From positions 1 through 37,894 of the forward strand of contig JAUILT010000021.1 in the NCBI GenBank assembly GCA_030432925.1: a stretch of 37,894 bases of DNA. Reading direction: 5' to 3'. Of this stretch, positions 8,161 to 20,728 are shown one piece after another; the first letter of the stretch is position 1, and each line of letters starts with the position of its first letter. This DNA is from Bdellovibrionia bacterium. GTDB taxonomy: Bacteria; Bdellovibrionota; Bdellovibrionia; Bdellovibrionales; UBA1609. Below the pieces are notes generated by a model. The model worked only from the letters and a program-made list of their open reading frames with translations. It was not told the DNA's origin and did not search any database. The translations under genes and the position numbers were made by a program.

Positions 8161-9174
8161 CTAAAGTTCTGACTCACCAGACCTTTCCGAAGACTTCAAT
8201 TTGAAAAGAGGAGGTGATTTGGGCTGTGACACCTGGGGAGCATCATCCCGAGACTCCAGGTGGGGCACATAGATTTTTTTATTGGAGATTTTCTTTTGTA
8301 GGTCCCATCGATGCCTTAGAGCCGCTGTCAAACGACGTCTGGTAAAGGCCGAATAGACTTTTAACCTCAAAAAATACACTTTGCCCAGTTGCCACCCTAG
8401 ACGTGAGTACTTAAAAACAAGCACCATAAGGTCCTGCGCCCACCAGCGCAGTTGAATACTCAACTTATGAATTCTTTCAGAATGATAAATTCTTAATAAT
8501 TGCTGCTGAAGCCTTTGCAACGCCGACACCTGATATACTTTCTGCCATAAGGCTAACAACCACTCCTGTGAGTGCAAAACCCCAACCATGAAAAATGGAA
8601 CACTTTTTTTGTGATGCACCTGCAACCACTTGAGCTTATCCACAGTAAAGCCCATGCTTTGAATCTCTCCGATAGCATTATCTGCAAATAAATACCGATG
8701 AAAAGAAAAGCCAGACTCAATCACTCTGCGACGAAAACAAATATTCGTGTGTCCGTTCATCTCAAGAACTGTGGACTTCATAACACGTGCCGAGGCCTTC
8801 TTTGGCTCGTATATATGGTGCTCAATATTGTAACCCGCACAAACATCCACTCCCGGATGATCCAAAAGAAATCCATAGAGCTTTAGTAAGTCATTGGGGT
8901 TATCAAAAATAGTTTCTTCATCAAGAACATAAATAAAATCACCGCTGCATTGACGAATCGCAACATCCACCATGGCCGACATGTATTTTTTATCCTTAAT
9001 CATGACTGTACGAAGGTCATAGTTGACCTCCGGCAAGTTCTTAAAGGCATCTGCTCTGTTAGAAACAAGGACCACCTGTAAGGCCTGAGCAGGAAAGTCC
9101 TGCTGAGCAATATCCTGTAAAAGAGCCTCTCTCTTTTGTTGTGATTTTCCGATTGCAACGACCAACGAAACCAT
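8161..9174 (-). CDS. GT2-like (GT-A fold) glycosyltransferase-family protein with atypical DXD
   Basis: 'MVSLVVAIGKSQQKREALLQDIAQQDFPAQALQVVLVSN', 'CSGDFIYVLDEETIF' (DEE at the DXD position), 'NGHTNICFRRRVIESGF'. Confidence 0.7.
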   Translation of the reverse strand: MVSLVVAIGKSQQKREALLQDIAQQDFPAQALQVVLVSNRADAFKNLPEVNYDLRTVMIKDKKYMSAMVDVAIRQCSGDFIYVLDEETIFDNPNDLLKLYGFLLDHPGVDVCAGYNIEHHIYEPKKASARVMKSTVLEMNGHTNICFRRRVIESGFSFHRYLFADNAIGEIQSMGFTVDKLKWLQVHHKKSVPFFMVGVLHSQEWLLALWQKVYQVSALQRLQQQLLRIYHSERIHKLSIQLRWWAQDLMVLVFKYSRLGWQLGKVYFLRLKVYSAFTRRRLTAALRHRWDLQKKISNKKIYVPHLESRDDAPQVSQPKSPPLFKLKSSERSGESEL

Positions 9175-15500: not shown

Positions 15501-16544
15501 CTATTGCCAGTTCAAATCATCACGATAGTACCGGTTGTGTTGACCAGGCACAACAATTCGCTCAGGAAGCGCACGGTGATCTAAGACCTCTCCCGATAAC
15601 AGATATCCTTGGACAAAAATATTTCCGTTGCTGTGAACCTTCACCACAGCAAACCCTGTTTTTGACCGCCCTGTCTGCCCTGACAGATAACGGGCTCCAG
15701 AACCCATACAGGGCATAGACAAAATTCTTAAAACCCTGTCTTGCCGCCCTTCTCGACGGTGAATCACTTTGCCTGGAAAGAACGCATGGGAGTGACCAAA
15801 TATGGCGAGGTCGACACCTTCATCTAAAAAAAGCTTTTCCAATCCATTTGGATTTTCCTCCCATTGCTCTTTATTAAGAACCTCGTAGTATTTACCACGG
15901 CCATTATGGGAGTGTTTTCCTTTATTTAGCAACGGATACAGAGGGACATGTCCATAAACAATTCTTGCTGTGGCCCGCTGAGCCTGTGGACTTTGCAATT
16001 GCTGACGAATCCAGTCTCTTTGAAGATCTCCATGGTGAATACGAAAGGGCGTCACGCTGTCCATGCTAATAAAAAAAACATTGTTGACTACGTAAGAGTA
16101 ATAAAATGGATAAAACCTTTGGTCTATCAACTGCACTCGCGGCGCCTTTTGGTTCCAAAAACTCTGATAAAGATCTCGTTCCCGCTGCATCACTGCATAT
16201 CCAGAGGCATCGTGGTTACCGGGACTCGGAGCAAACTCCACACCTGCCGTGAAAAATCTCTGCAGAATATTTCTTTCAAAAGAGTCCCACATAGCTTCTA
16301 GCCGACTCAGTGGATATTTATGACTGATGTCTTCCCCGGCCACGTAGTCACCAGTACCAATCACCAGGTCAGGTTTTTTTTCTAAAACCCGATCCATGCC
16401 CCTCAAAACAGACTCTCTATAGTCCGTGCTCCCTAAACGGCCATTGAGATCAGAGATCACCACCAGCTTCAGGCTGTCTCCAAAAGCACTACAATGCAGC
16501 GCAGCAAATATGAGGCATTTCCAAAAAAAGGGATAGAACTTCAT
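15501..16544 (-). CDS. Secreted calcineurin-like metallophosphoesterase
   Basis: 'LKLVVISDLNGRLG', 'DLVIGTGDYVAGED', 'SPGNHDASGY', 'RIVYGHVPLYP', 'LAIFGHSHAFFPG'; N-terminal signal peptide-like segment. Confidence 0.88.
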   Translation of the reverse strand: MKFYPFFWKCLIFAALHCSAFGDSLKLVVISDLNGRLGSTDYRESVLRGMDRVLEKKPDLVIGTGDYVAGEDISHKYPLSRLEAMWDSFERNILQRFFTAGVEFAPSPGNHDASGYAVMQRERDLYQSFWNQKAPRVQLIDQRFYPFYYSYVVNNVFFISMDSVTPFRIHHGDLQRDWIRQQLQSPQAQRATARIVYGHVPLYPLLNKGKHSHNGRGKYYEVLNKEQWEENPNGLEKLFLDEGVDLAIFGHSHAFFPGKVIHRREGRQDRVLRILSMPCMGSGARYLSGQTGRSKTGFAVVKVHSNGNIFVQGYLLSGEVLDHRALPERIVVPGQHNRYYRDDLNWQ

Positions 16545-16732
16545 TCAGCTTCCATGCTGCCAGCCAGAGCCTTATTGCTCTCACACCTTTGATTTTACTA
16601 GAAATATTTTGAAAGCGACAAGTCCAGCTCTTGAACAGTGCCGGTATATTTCCAACATTTCACCCTCACCTTTTTTCCACGTACCTTTTCTGGAGCAGAA
16701 AGTCATGGCACATTCACGCAAGGAATACACAG

Positions 16733-18223
16733 ATGATGAAATCACTTATTCAATTACTTTTTATTATGGGCTCTGTCACAGTTCGAGCAGAAGTCGCTGG
16801 GCATCAAATCCTCGTGACCACTTCTCCCAATGGCGTTCAGGAAAAGTGCATACGGCACCGACTCCCTGGCGCTGACTACCGCGAGAAAGACTCAAAAAAA
16901 GAAGCCGAGTTTTGCTCCATCGATCTTTATAACGGTCACTATGCTATATGTGCCAAAACCTGGAGCACAAGCCCTGGTTCCGTCATTTATAATATCTCCT
17001 CCACAGGTCTCACTGTTTCAAGAGCAGAAGATCAATGCCAACAATTAAACAATGGTCGTGTAGAGGGAGCTCATAAAGTTGCCAAGTTTAAAAATACCAT
17101 GAATGCCCGCGGCACTAGTGGCACCTATTCTCAATCCTCATTGATCTACTATCATATCTCCCGCTACTTTGGGATGCTGACTGACATTCCTGTCTCTGTT
17201 TACAGAAGTATCGACCGGGAGCAACACCTCAACCGAGTGGCCCTAAGAGCCTCTCGTCAAGGGCGTATGGGCAAGCAGATGAAAGCCGGGTGGCGAACAC
17301 TCATTGCAGCAGAGCAGAGCCCAAGCTCTTACTCACCTACTGATGAGCTTTTTACTGATAATCAAAGACAGATTTACGGGATTCTGATCCGCGGACGAGG
17401 TGAACGCTATGGAGCAGAAGTCAATGGCATAAGATCCAAGTGGGGACTCAAACAAAATATTGAATTCACACAAACAGCCCCTTTTATGGCCCTACAATCA
17501 GAAAAAAACTTAAACGCAGCCATTCAAGATGGACTGGTCTCTGCTAGAAAAAACCGTAAACTCAGAGAGGCTCTCGGTGGCTTTGTTTCCAATGAACAAA
17601 TGATCTTTTGGATGACAGAATTGGCCGAAGTGACTCTCATGGATTATATCTTTAGCCAACAAGACCGCATTGGTAACATCGATTACCGCTGGTACTGGGT
17701 GTACGTAAAAAATGATGTCCTCAGTAACAAACGAGAAAAGAGTCTCGAAGACTCCAATGGAGACGAGCTACCCAGAAAAGCCGTAGACTTTTCTAACATC
17801 CAACCCCCAAGCGAAATTGCCGAATATCAACCGGTTCTGATCCAAAAAACCCAACTCAATGACAATGATGCTGGAACACGCAAGCTCAATACCAATGCCA
17901 AAAGCCCTTACGTCAACTACACGAAAAGAGCAAAGATGTTGGAGAAAATCAAACACTACCCAGCTCGCCTTTACTCAAAACTCGTAAAATTTAACGATGA
18001 TCTGCAAACAGCTGGCGTGATCTGGCAATTCATGTCTACACAATTTGATATAAACCCCAAATATCTCGAAAGTGCCCGTTTCTTTGCGAATGAAGCATTA
18101 GAGGTTCTACGTAAAAAATGTGAAAACAAAGAACTGATTTTTGATCTAAACCCAAAAGAGTATCTAATAACAGGAGCTACTCAACCCAAACGAATGGATT
18201 GTCAAACAGGAGATTACCAATGA
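16733..18223 (+). CDS. Exported protein with PI4KII/HipA/FAM20-like atypical kinase motifs (candidate)
   Basis: Likely start MMKSLIQLLFIMGSVTVRA (signal peptide); the track ORF starts at 16631. N-lobe-like 'HKVAKFKNT...SSLIYYHISRYFGMLTDIPVSVYRSID', catalytic-loop-like 'LMDYIFSQQDRIGNIDYRWYWVYVKND', metal-binding-like 'IQKTQLNDNDAG'. Confidence 0.6.
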   Translation: MMKSLIQLLFIMGSVTVRAEVAGHQILVTTSPNGVQEKCIRHRLPGADYREKDSKKEAEFCSIDLYNGHYAICAKTWSTSPGSVIYNISSTGLTVSRAEDQCQQLNNGRVEGAHKVAKFKNTMNARGTSGTYSQSSLIYYHISRYFGMLTDIPVSVYRSIDREQHLNRVALRASRQGRMGKQMKAGWRTLIAAEQSPSSYSPTDELFTDNQRQIYGILIRGRGERYGAEVNGIRSKWGLKQNIEFTQTAPFMALQSEKNLNAAIQDGLVSARKNRKLREALGGFVSNEQMIFWMTELAEVTLMDYIFSQQDRIGNIDYRWYWVYVKNDVLSNKREKSLEDSNGDELPRKAVDFSNIQPPSEIAEYQPVLIQKTQLNDNDAGTRKLNTNAKSPYVNYTKRAKMLEKIKHYPARLYSKLVKFNDDLQTAGVIWQFMSTQFDINPKYLESARFFANEALEVLRKKCENKELIFDLNPKEYLITGATQPKRMDCQTGDYQ

Positions 18224-18894
18224 AAACAGTACTAATGACATTTATTTTTACAACATTTTCCACAATGGCTCATGCTCGACTACAAACCATGGTAGCAGAC
18301 TACACCCAATTTCTTGGCAAGACTTCCAGTTCCACACGAATCATGAAAAACTCCCCACTGAATCGAGGCAAAGACATGCGCCCAAAAACTGTTTTGAAAG
18401 GTGTTCTCTACTTTGGAGGAAGTGACCGCAAAAGGGCTTTACTCTCTTCGAGCACTCAGCAGTTTTTATGTGAAAGTGGGTTTTCAACCATCTACTCTGT
18501 CTACGACACTCCTAATAGATCCCAAATCAACTGTAACGGAAATACCACCCGTTACCGCAAGATCGGTGAAGCGAAATCCTCTGACAACGCTGGCTCTCGA
18601 GTACGCACGTTTCTAGAAGATATTTATGATATCATTCAATCCAACGGCACCCTTGGACCTATCTATTTACATTGTTGGTATGGTGTTCACGCCTCTAATA
18701 CAATTGCCCAAATTGCATTAAAACAATTTTGTGGCGTCAGTGACTCTGAGCTTGCCCGCAACTGGGACACCGTGGATATTTATGATAGTCTGGGAAGCAA
18801 GGGGATGCGTAAGAATATAAAAAAAATACAAAATTTTTCTCCCTACCAGGACTTAATGATCAGTGCAAAACAAAGGCAACACATTTGCCATTAA
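18220..18894 (+). CDS. Exported dual-specificity phosphatase-like protein with degenerate P-loop
   Basis: Start MKTVLMTFIFTTFSTMAHA overlaps the upstream stop as ATGA (18220-18223). 'VLYFGGSDRKRALLSSSTQQFLCESGFSTIYSVYDT...VRTFLEDIYDIIQSNGTLGPIYLHCWYGVHASNTIAQIAL' resembles DSP topology, with HCWYGVHAS in place of HCX5R. Confidence 0.6.
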   Translation: MKTVLMTFIFTTFSTMAHARLQTMVADYTQFLGKTSSSTRIMKNSPLNRGKDMRPKTVLKGVLYFGGSDRKRALLSSSTQQFLCESGFSTIYSVYDTPNRSQINCNGNTTRYRKIGEAKSSDNAGSRVRTFLEDIYDIIQSNGTLGPIYLHCWYGVHASNTIAQIALKQFCGVSDSELARNWDTVDIYDSLGSKGMRKNIKKIQNFSPYQDLMISAKQRQHICH

Positions 18895-18928: not shown

Positions 18929-20044
18929 ATGTTAAAAAAATGGATATTTGCTGTTTTAATAGGATTGGTTACAATAACTGTTCCTGTACGAGCAGCAGTA
19001 CCTGAGGGGAATACCTGCCACCGTTTAATGGAGGACCTCACCTATGCCAATACAGATATTCAACTCCACCTGGATTTAAAAGAAGGCAAGGCCAACTTCA
19101 ATATTGAAAAAACCTCCTCCGCAGAAACCCTCACCCCTTCCATAGAGGACACCTTTGCACAGGGGCTTTACTTTTGGATGATTAAGGGAGCCTCTCGCCT
19201 TCCCCACCCTCCAAAGAAAAAAAATATTTTGGAAAATGGTTTTTATGATGTTGCCGTTCCTCTTGATCCCCAAGACCGACAATCTCATCAAGTGATTTTT
19301 CACTATCGCGCTCTGAACCACCAGAACGGAGCTCGATCTGCTATTTTAAAATCTTGCTCAGTCGTGGATGCTCGAGGACGACAACTGGGTAGGTATTCAT
19401 TAAAAAGTCTTCTCCGCGAGCTGGAGTCGACAACTACGCCCCCTCCGTTTTTACAACTTAAATACAATGACCATCTGATTCCATTTCCCACGATCATTTC
19501 TGAGGAGGTCTATTTAAAATACCATCACTTCTTTGTCACATTTTACTACAATCCCTCACAAAGAGGTGGGCACCTAAGAGAACTGGAAGACCTACACGAT
19601 ATTGAAACCCTTTCTCAGCTAGAGTGGCGCCGCCGCAAATACCATCGACAGAACATGCGTCGCTGGATTATGGAGCGATTTGCTAGATACGCCGTGGTTC
19701 ACCTAGCTCTCATTGCCTCAACCCCTTTATGGATTGAAAAAATGCCCGGTAGTGGCATATTCTTTCGAAGTCCTCAGCCAGTAGTGACAGAGGCTGTGCC
19801 TCCCGCTCTTGCTCAAATAACAGGTCCCACATCATTGAACTACTTTTTTGATGGCCAGCCTGTTGAAATCTTTCTTTTAAAAAATGCTGATGACCAGTAC
19901 AGCTTGCTCTTATCACCGGCTCATTGGGACAAAGTGAATGCCTCCAATCAGATCAAACTCACAGACTCAGAGGGGCAAACCCACTCATTCTTTGTGGTGA
20001 CCCTCTCAGATGGAAACAAAGCCTTGATTCGCCTCACCGAGTAA
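18929..20044 (+). CDS. Hypothetical exported protein
   Basis: Signal peptide MLKKWIFAVLIGLVTITVPVRAA; no recognised domain; follows the kinase/phosphatase-like pair on the same strand. Confidence 0.65.
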   Translation: MLKKWIFAVLIGLVTITVPVRAAVPEGNTCHRLMEDLTYANTDIQLHLDLKEGKANFNIEKTSSAETLTPSIEDTFAQGLYFWMIKGASRLPHPPKKKNILENGFYDVAVPLDPQDRQSHQVIFHYRALNHQNGARSAILKSCSVVDARGRQLGRYSLKSLLRELESTTTPPPFLQLKYNDHLIPFPTIISEEVYLKYHHFFVTFYYNPSQRGGHLRELEDLHDIETLSQLEWRRRKYHRQNMRRWIMERFARYAVVHLALIASTPLWIEKMPGSGIFFRSPQPVVTEAVPPALAQITGPTSLNYFFDGQPVEIFLLKNADDQYSLLLSPAHWDKVNASNQIKLTDSEGQTHSFFVVTLSDGNKALIRLTE

Positions 20045-20170: not shown

Positions 20171-20728
20171 ATGAAAGCCTTACCCCTCATTCTAGCTCTA
20201 TTCCTAACTCTGTCAGCTTGGTCAGCTCCGCATCCCGGCACCTCCAGCTCTTTTCTCATTGGACAAGACAACGGTCGGTTTATTTCACAGCATGGATTTT
20301 TACTGAATGCTGCTGGAACTCATTGGCAACACCAACACACTCCAAAAAATATTAAAAATATTGAAACCATGTATTTATCACAAAACTCCATCGGTGGAAT
20401 GAAAGCCTCTCTCACAGTGCGTGTGGATGATCTTTCTCGCACCACCTCATTGGGAGCTTATATGCAAAAATGGGCTCGCGATTACCATCGCTTTGGCTTT
20501 GATATTTTGAATTCCCAAAAAGTGAAGGTCGGCTCTTACAAAGCTCACATGATTGACCTCATTCACAAGCCCTCCTCCAAACAACTGCGCCAAGTCGTGT
20601 TCTTTCGAAACCAAAAAGCTGTGGTCTTCACCTGTCGGGATAACCGACAGACTTTTTTAAAATCACTGAAGTCCTGTAATGAAATTATTCGCAGCTTTCG
20701 CTGGGCTCGGGCGAGTCTCTCTAACTGA
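20171..20728 (+). CDS. Hypothetical exported protein, possibly PsbP/DcrB-like
   Basis: Signal peptide MKALPLILALFLTLSAWSA, good RBS (aaggagaaagagatg); 'GFLLNAAGTHWQH...TCRDNRQTFLKSLKSCNEIIRSFRW' is weakly reminiscent of PsbP/DcrB folds. Confidence 0.6.
   Translation: MKALPLILALFLTLSAWSAPHPGTSSSFLIGQDNGRFISQHGFLLNAAGTHWQHQHTPKNIKNIETMYLSQNSIGGMKASLTVRVDDLSRTTSLGAYMQKWARDYHRFGFDILNSQKVKVGSYKAHMIDLIHKPSSKQLRQVVFFRNQKAVVFTCRDNRQTFLKSLKSCNEIIRSFRWARASLSN

Follow-up and report, generated by a model that had tools for sequence, protein, structure and literature searches.

In animals, extracytoplasmic phosphorylation is well documented: FAM20 kinases such as FAM20C phosphorylate secreted proteins. 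It is little charted in Gram-negative bacteria, in which the periplasm is normally without ATP. Kinases of this kind may have nonprotein substrates: FAM20B phosphorylates xylose. HipA and the PI4K-type kinases combine a general kinase-like fold with a D-R-x-x-(x)-N loop, HipA being cytoplasmic, and among phosphatase relatives the pseudophosphatase STYX has lost the Cys. In FAM20C, the catalytic Asp is D458 and the metal Asp D478, the ion pair involves Glu311, and Glu306 is FAM20-specific; the pseudokinase Fam20A, an inactive relative, activates Fam20C (PMC4421793). One survey calls the FAM20 group specific to eukaryotes or Metazoa (PMC9758233). CotH kinases have been described in a gene group with a polyphosphate polymerase and DUF4956 (PMC7112168).

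Here we analyze a locus in the window, by which we mean the whole 37,894-nucleotide stretch of DNA from a Bdellovibrionia bacterium. It encodes a kinase-like protein (K), a phosphatase-like partner (P), and a metallophosphoesterase (M). The best explanation of the three, to which we assign a probability of about 0.62, is an exported three-protein phosphorylation module.

Locus Organization

K, an exported FAM20-fold kinase-like protein of 496 aa, is encoded on the forward strand at 16733–18223 (ATG at 16733, TGA at 18221–18223). Its signal peptide, read from the sequence, occupies 16733–16789 of the same strand: the N terminus is MMKSLIQLLFIMGSVTVRA followed by Glu, with the boundary at VRA/E. 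A Shine–Dalgarno-like AAGGAA lies ~10 bases upstream of ATG 16733; a longer alternative start at TTG 16631 is possible and would bury the signal peptide. P, an exported DSP-fold protein of 224 aa without the P-loop Arg, follows on the forward strand at 18220–18894 (ATG at 18220, TAA ending at 18894), and it too bears a signal peptide, MKTVLMTFIFTTFSTMAHA followed by Arg. The two frames overlap by ATGA at 18220–18223. The original prediction, drawn from this DNA alone, had described two signal-peptide ORFs overlapping in this way, and both the coordinates and the N termini were confirmed.

A conserved third gene, which that prediction had not linked to the pair, encodes M, an exported calcineurin-like metallophosphoesterase of 347 aa (Pfam Metallophos), on the reverse strand at 15501–16544, divergent from K. 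In the 188-bp intergenic region between M and K (16545–16732), the reverse strand has a single weak sigma-70-like match; promoter-scan matches were not above those in shuffled sequence. Terminator-like sites numbered 8, vs. 2.3 in shuffles, and a plasmid search gave no match. Overlapping or abutting starts of these genes were seen again at other loci.

Four other genes of the window—MutY-like, TolB-like, 18929–20044, and 20171–20728—had no homolog among the fetched loci and are therefore excluded from the module. The ORF at 18929–20044 (371 aa, with a signal peptide and no Pfam match) begins 34 bases past P.

Predicted Fold of K

The AlphaFold model of K (mean pLDDT 92.7, pTM 0.91) places a Lys on strand 114–121, then helix 134–146, a long helix at 287–307 leading into DRIGN, and a strand at 368–374 leading into DND, an order of elements that fits a kinase. 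In a Foldseek search of this model against the PDB, the best 16 matches were all Fam20 (probability 0.97–1.00), with E-values of 2.5e-3 to 5e-2 and TM-scores of 0.34–0.39 by query and 0.37–0.48 by target, all below 0.5; these modest E-values and TM-scores indicate that the relation to Fam20 is distant. The kinase-like fold on which the original prediction depended is thus present in the model and in its structural matches. That prediction had compared the catalytic loop with PI4KII, HipA, and FAM20 alike: The FAM20 part of the comparison held, whereas HipA and PI4K gave neither a Pfam match nor a fold match of meaningful probability.

Sequence-level searches returned none of this likeness. Compared by sequence with Pfam, NCBIfam, and the PDB, K gave nothing significant; the PF06702 (Fam20C) model found 0 of 46 K members at E 0.1, and CotH models matched none of the same 46. 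An hhalign comparison of K with a shallow Fam20 C-lobe profile, built from PDB-derived sequences and using an approximate query, gave a probability of 0.2%. A PDB-profile match to phosphorylase kinase gamma (E 0.005) was rejected, as it aligned the C-terminal helices of K to the wrong part of the kinase. Across 142 genomes of the phylum, PF06702 gave no match above cut-off. The one weak match to this model, L104 (G179:C1:3103363-3103524), carries DRHGFNYLQ and AIDHGLSFGG; it is a different bacterial kinase-like protein, unrelated to K by profile.

The predicted structure supports K as kinase-like in fold, with FAM20 proteins as its nearest solved relatives. Besides this fold, K resembles FAM20A, FAM20B, and FAM20C (PF06702) in its secretion and conserved cysteines, and also in having a Lys, a catalytic DR motif, and, farther along the chain, a DN metal motif; its invariant D311 and D377 appear in an order along the chain that matches D458 and D478 of FAM20C. 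A catalytically odd partner may be a further parallel, with P standing to K somewhat as Fam20A stands to Fam20C (PMC4421793). There are also differences: K has no Pfam match or profile similarity to the group, no equivalents of Glu306 and Glu311 were found in its alignment, its conserved Asn lies at D+4, and it is bacterial and has phosphatase-type neighbors. These searches gave no sequence-level relation and the ion-pair Glu was not identified, and we do not file K as a FAM20 member; it plausibly functions like a FAM20 kinase.

Conservation and Distribution of K

From 85,462 species genomes, a pattern scan recovered 117 stretches encoding relatives of K, and 80 of these were kept. Because the pattern was Q[QAD]DR[IV]GNI[HD], only residues outside it are unbiased there, and since these 80 make up most of our 98-homolog set, conservation of DRxGN among them is partly by construction. 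We therefore relied for this motif on 14 homologs gathered without a motif filter. In these 14, K120, D304, Q309, D311, R312, G314, N315, I316, and D377-N378-D379 are invariant.

The residues fall into three stretches of the forward strand. KVAKFK (residues 115–120; 17075–17092) contains the candidate nucleotide-binding Lys, K120 (17090–17092), picked out by its conservation and its place on strand 114–121; it is present in 97 of 98 homologs, the remaining one having a gap. DRIGNI (residues 311–316; 17663–17680), the candidate catalytic loop, lies within DYIFSQQDRIGNIDYRW (residues 304–320). DND (residues 377–379; 17861–17869), within LNDNDAG (residues 375–381), supplies the candidate metal-binding Asp directly after strand 368–374; D377, N378, and D379 are each found in 98 of 98 homologs, which span five phyla. 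The atypical-kinase residues first picked by eye have accordingly stood up in homologs, both in the filter-free set and, for DND, in the full one. The homolog alignment shows no conserved Glu in the candidate αC helix (134–146); E37 and E57, conserved in the 14-homolog alignment, lie outside it.

That no such Glu was identified bears on whether K transfers phosphate at all. K could instead be a pseudokinase scaffold or carry out other chemistry such as AMPylation or glutamylation, both known for kinase-fold proteins, a reading that also fits the expectation of no ATP in the periplasm and the published cases of kinase-fold proteins with other chemistry. We consider it unlikely, given that the Lys, Asp-Arg, Asn, and Asp-Asn-Asp show essentially no variation among homologs from five phyla, that the same residues persist in a clade whose members have no signal peptide, and that the most widely linked neighbor of K is a phosphoesterase. 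We retain phosphotransfer by K, with moderate confidence in its catalysis.

Carriers of K are mostly non-predatory Rhodobacteraceae, gammaproteobacteria, Desulfobulbaceae, and others, with Ruegeria, Shimia, and Gemmobacter among them, and within the window's own order only 11 of 59 related genomes have a homolog, leaving 48 without K. Such a distribution makes it very unlikely that predatory Bdellovibrionota use the module as a weapon against prey, a prey-directed role having been raised in the original prediction and being suggested by the presence, by record title, of Bdellovibrionales among the window's relatives. Three loci (L014, L015, and L013) hold a second, divergent K-like protein, in open frames of 567–583 aa; each of their genomes has another K as well, and only one copy of P was found per genome.

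Predicted Export of K and a Clade without Signal Peptides

Every untruncated K homolog outside a Thiotrichaceae-like clade has a hydrophobic N terminus and both Cys39 and Cys61. The eight homologs without a signal peptide (L029, L032, L057, L074, L080, L094, L095, and L100) comprise seven labeled Thiothrix or Thiotrichaceae and one from a MAG labeled Aquificaceae; the start of L074 is ambiguous. Six of the eight are in the tree, where they form one supported clade. The kinase residues are intact in all eight, and each is missing Cys39, Cys61, or both. Neither P nor M adjoins K in any of them, including L057, L080, L094, and L095, for which >5 kb of flanking sequence is available on either side. 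In two Thiotrichaceae-like genomes, P is absent genome-wide. The Aquificaceae-MAG protein (L057; QOAQ01000117.1) is nested within the Thiotrichaceae clade and possibly sits on a mis-binned contig.

The joint loss of the signal peptide, the Cys pair, and both neighbors argues that P and M are tied to exported K. On the simplest reading of these sequence patterns, K is normally exported with a Cys39–Cys61 disulfide, the exported form is the one that P and M serve, and one lineage would have returned K to the cytoplasm with its active site retained. Export, proposed originally from the signal peptides of K and P, is the part of the scheme in which our confidence is strong.

P, a DSP-Fold Protein without the P-Loop Arg

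The P of the window had no significant match by sequence in Pfam, NCBIfam, or the PDB; across the family, weak Pfam matches to Y_phosphatase (23/28 members) and DSPc (20/28) were seen. Its AlphaFold model (pLDDT 81) was more informative: Foldseek returned DUSP5, MKP-4, DUSP22, and VHZ at E 2e-5 to 4e-5 and probability 1.00, in agreement with the dual-specificity-phosphatase-like layout first proposed for this ORF. There were 94 PDB matches at E < 1e-3, the best 50 of which are mainly DUSP/PTP-superfamily phosphatases; Pseudomonas aeruginosa TpbA and STYX are also among the fold matches.

The P-loop equivalent, H151-C-W-Y-G-V-H-A-S159 (18670–18696, forward strand), lies within IYLHCWYGVHAS (residues 148–159). 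In an alignment of 64 homologs, it reads H-C-x-x-G-x-H-[AS]-S, with the His, Cys, Gly, His, and Ser invariant (Cys152, His157, and Ser159 each 64/64). Position 158, the C+6 position occupied by the Arg of HC-x5-R, is Ala in the window and Ala or Ser in all 64 (Arg 0/64). The alignments show no invariant general-acid Asp. With the P-loop Arg absent in 64 of 64, P is probably no classical phosphatase, and a classical PTP mechanism appears unlikely from these alignments. P thus shares the DSP fold and the signature loop with STYX and other DSPs, but differs from STYX in retaining the Cys, losing the Arg, and being exported.

P may nonetheless be an active Cys-dependent phosphatase in which His157 replaces the lost Arg, so that K and P form a simple writer–eraser pair. 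The invariance of Cys152, His157, and Ser159, the DSP fold, and the perfect co-occurrence with K all fit such an enzyme; we find it doubtful because the residue replaced by Ala or Ser throughout is the phosphate-binding Arg of the PTP superfamily, no invariant general-acid Asp was found, and M already provides a phosphoesterase. A pure adaptor, for its part, would not need a Cys, and the invariant Cys counts against that role. The invariant Cys and His may instead reflect modified chemistry or a phosphate-binding role, in keeping with P as a nonclassical partner.

M, the Candidate Phosphoesterase

M matches Metallophos (PF00149) at E 4.5e-17, and the M of the window matches a profile of K-linked M proteins at E 1.4e-85. 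Like the calcineurin-like metallophosphoesterases of this family, it has the GD, GNHD, and GHxH motifs; GD, GNHD, H, and GHxH are retained in nearly all of 64 members. It differs from them in the first metal motif, where D-x-N replaces D-x-H in nearly all linked members. M is likely the best candidate for removal of phosphate added by K and, rather than P, the likelier antagonist of K. Of the roles once offered for P—antagonist, sensor, or pseudoenzyme—the latter two fit best, given the absence of the Arg.

Gene Linkage and Co-Occurrence

Among the 80 loci, M adjoins K in 60 and P adjoins K in 52. The arrangement varies: P, K, and M run in the same direction in Rhodobacteraceae (P>K>M>), whereas the window and a sister MAG (62% identity) have M<K>P>, three genomes from a different family within the window's order have P and K divergent, and in G017 P lies 5.5 kb from K on the same strand. 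Neighbors that stay together while their order changes point to a functional link and not to synteny kept by descent.

Co-occurrence at the genome level shows the same association. Among 59 genomes of the window's order, 8 have P, and all 8 have K. In the Ruegeria family (121 genomes), ten genomes have an intact K, and P occurs in those ten and in no others, a pattern with a chance probability of 8e-15 if genomes are independent, a figure weakened by shared ancestry. Over 57 loci, the pairwise distances of K correlate with those of P at 0.93, uncorrected for the species tree. The gene pairing anticipated for homologs is therefore borne out at the level of both loci and genomes. An eleventh K in the Ruegeria family (G197:C1:2740436-2740870) is a decayed remnant interrupted by in-frame stops; its genome has no P.

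Other neighbors are confined to particular groups. Rhodobacteraceae loci also have an SdiA-regulated/phytase-like propeller and a DUF4956-like membrane protein. In three genomes of group g38, a VTC polyphosphate-polymerase domain (E 9e-51) lies directly beside K; it is convergent with K at 8213–8998 of L105 and at the equivalent positions in G053 and G056, in a row that includes an unclassified gene, TolC-like by eye, an HlyD-like/DUF3616 protein, and DUF4956. This cluster recalls the CotH gene group, and K, like CotH, is a bacterial atypical kinase-like protein. K nevertheless matches no CotH model, and the published description of CotH includes no partner of the P or M type (PMC7112168). The genome from which the window comes contains neither VTC nor DUF4956, so the module does not require them.

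These neighbors bear on the substrate. K may phosphorylate an envelope glycan, lipid, or small molecule rather than a protein, an alternative that overlaps the best explanation and that we hold as a tentative but real possibility: FAM20B belongs to the same fold family (by PDB names), the propeller and the DUF4956-like protein are linked to K in Rhodobacteraceae, and the VTC domain adjoins K in one group, yet among the neighbors of K no recognizable glycan or lipid gene is shared by most of the 80 loci.

Discussion

In the exported three-protein module that we favor, K would be a secreted atypical FAM20-like kinase that phosphorylates an envelope or surface substrate, either protein or glycan. 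K120 and D377 to D379 would hold the nucleotide and metal, and D311 would act as the catalytic base. P would be co-translated with K, its Cys pocket kept and its catalytic Arg lost, and would most likely be a nonclassical partner, either binding the product once it is phosphorylated or regulating K. M, with its metal motifs largely intact, would likely remove the phosphate. Our confidence in these roles of P and M is moderate to weak.

ATP is scarce outside the cytoplasm, which makes the phosphate donor the main difficulty for the proposed mechanism of K. The VTC polyphosphate-polymerase domain beside K in one group hints at another phosphate donor. A scheme in which K uses a non-ATP donor such as polyphosphate, with P as reader and M as eraser, draws on the VTC and DUF4956 neighbors of that one group, and we judge it very unlikely. 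If true, K with such a donor, together with P and M, would make up a complete extracytoplasmic write–read–erase system in Gram-negative bacteria.

A search of open full text found no description of the K family, and K falls under none of the Pfam or NCBIfam models. The family looks like one of exported kinases, distant but FAM20-like in fold, whose partners are an Arg-less DSP-like protein and a phosphoesterase; it is apparently undescribed. By predicted fold, K would be a bacterial relative of a group that has been called specific to eukaryotes or Metazoa (PMC9758233). A widespread exported kinase-fold family with two phosphatase-type partners would offer a concrete, cultivable system for extracytoplasmic phosphorylation, for example in marine Ruegeria and Shimia, in which Ruegeria arenilitoris and Shimia haliotis are among the carriers of the set. 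Found in very different bacteria, the set of K, P, and M looks like a means of adding and removing phosphates beyond the cytoplasm.
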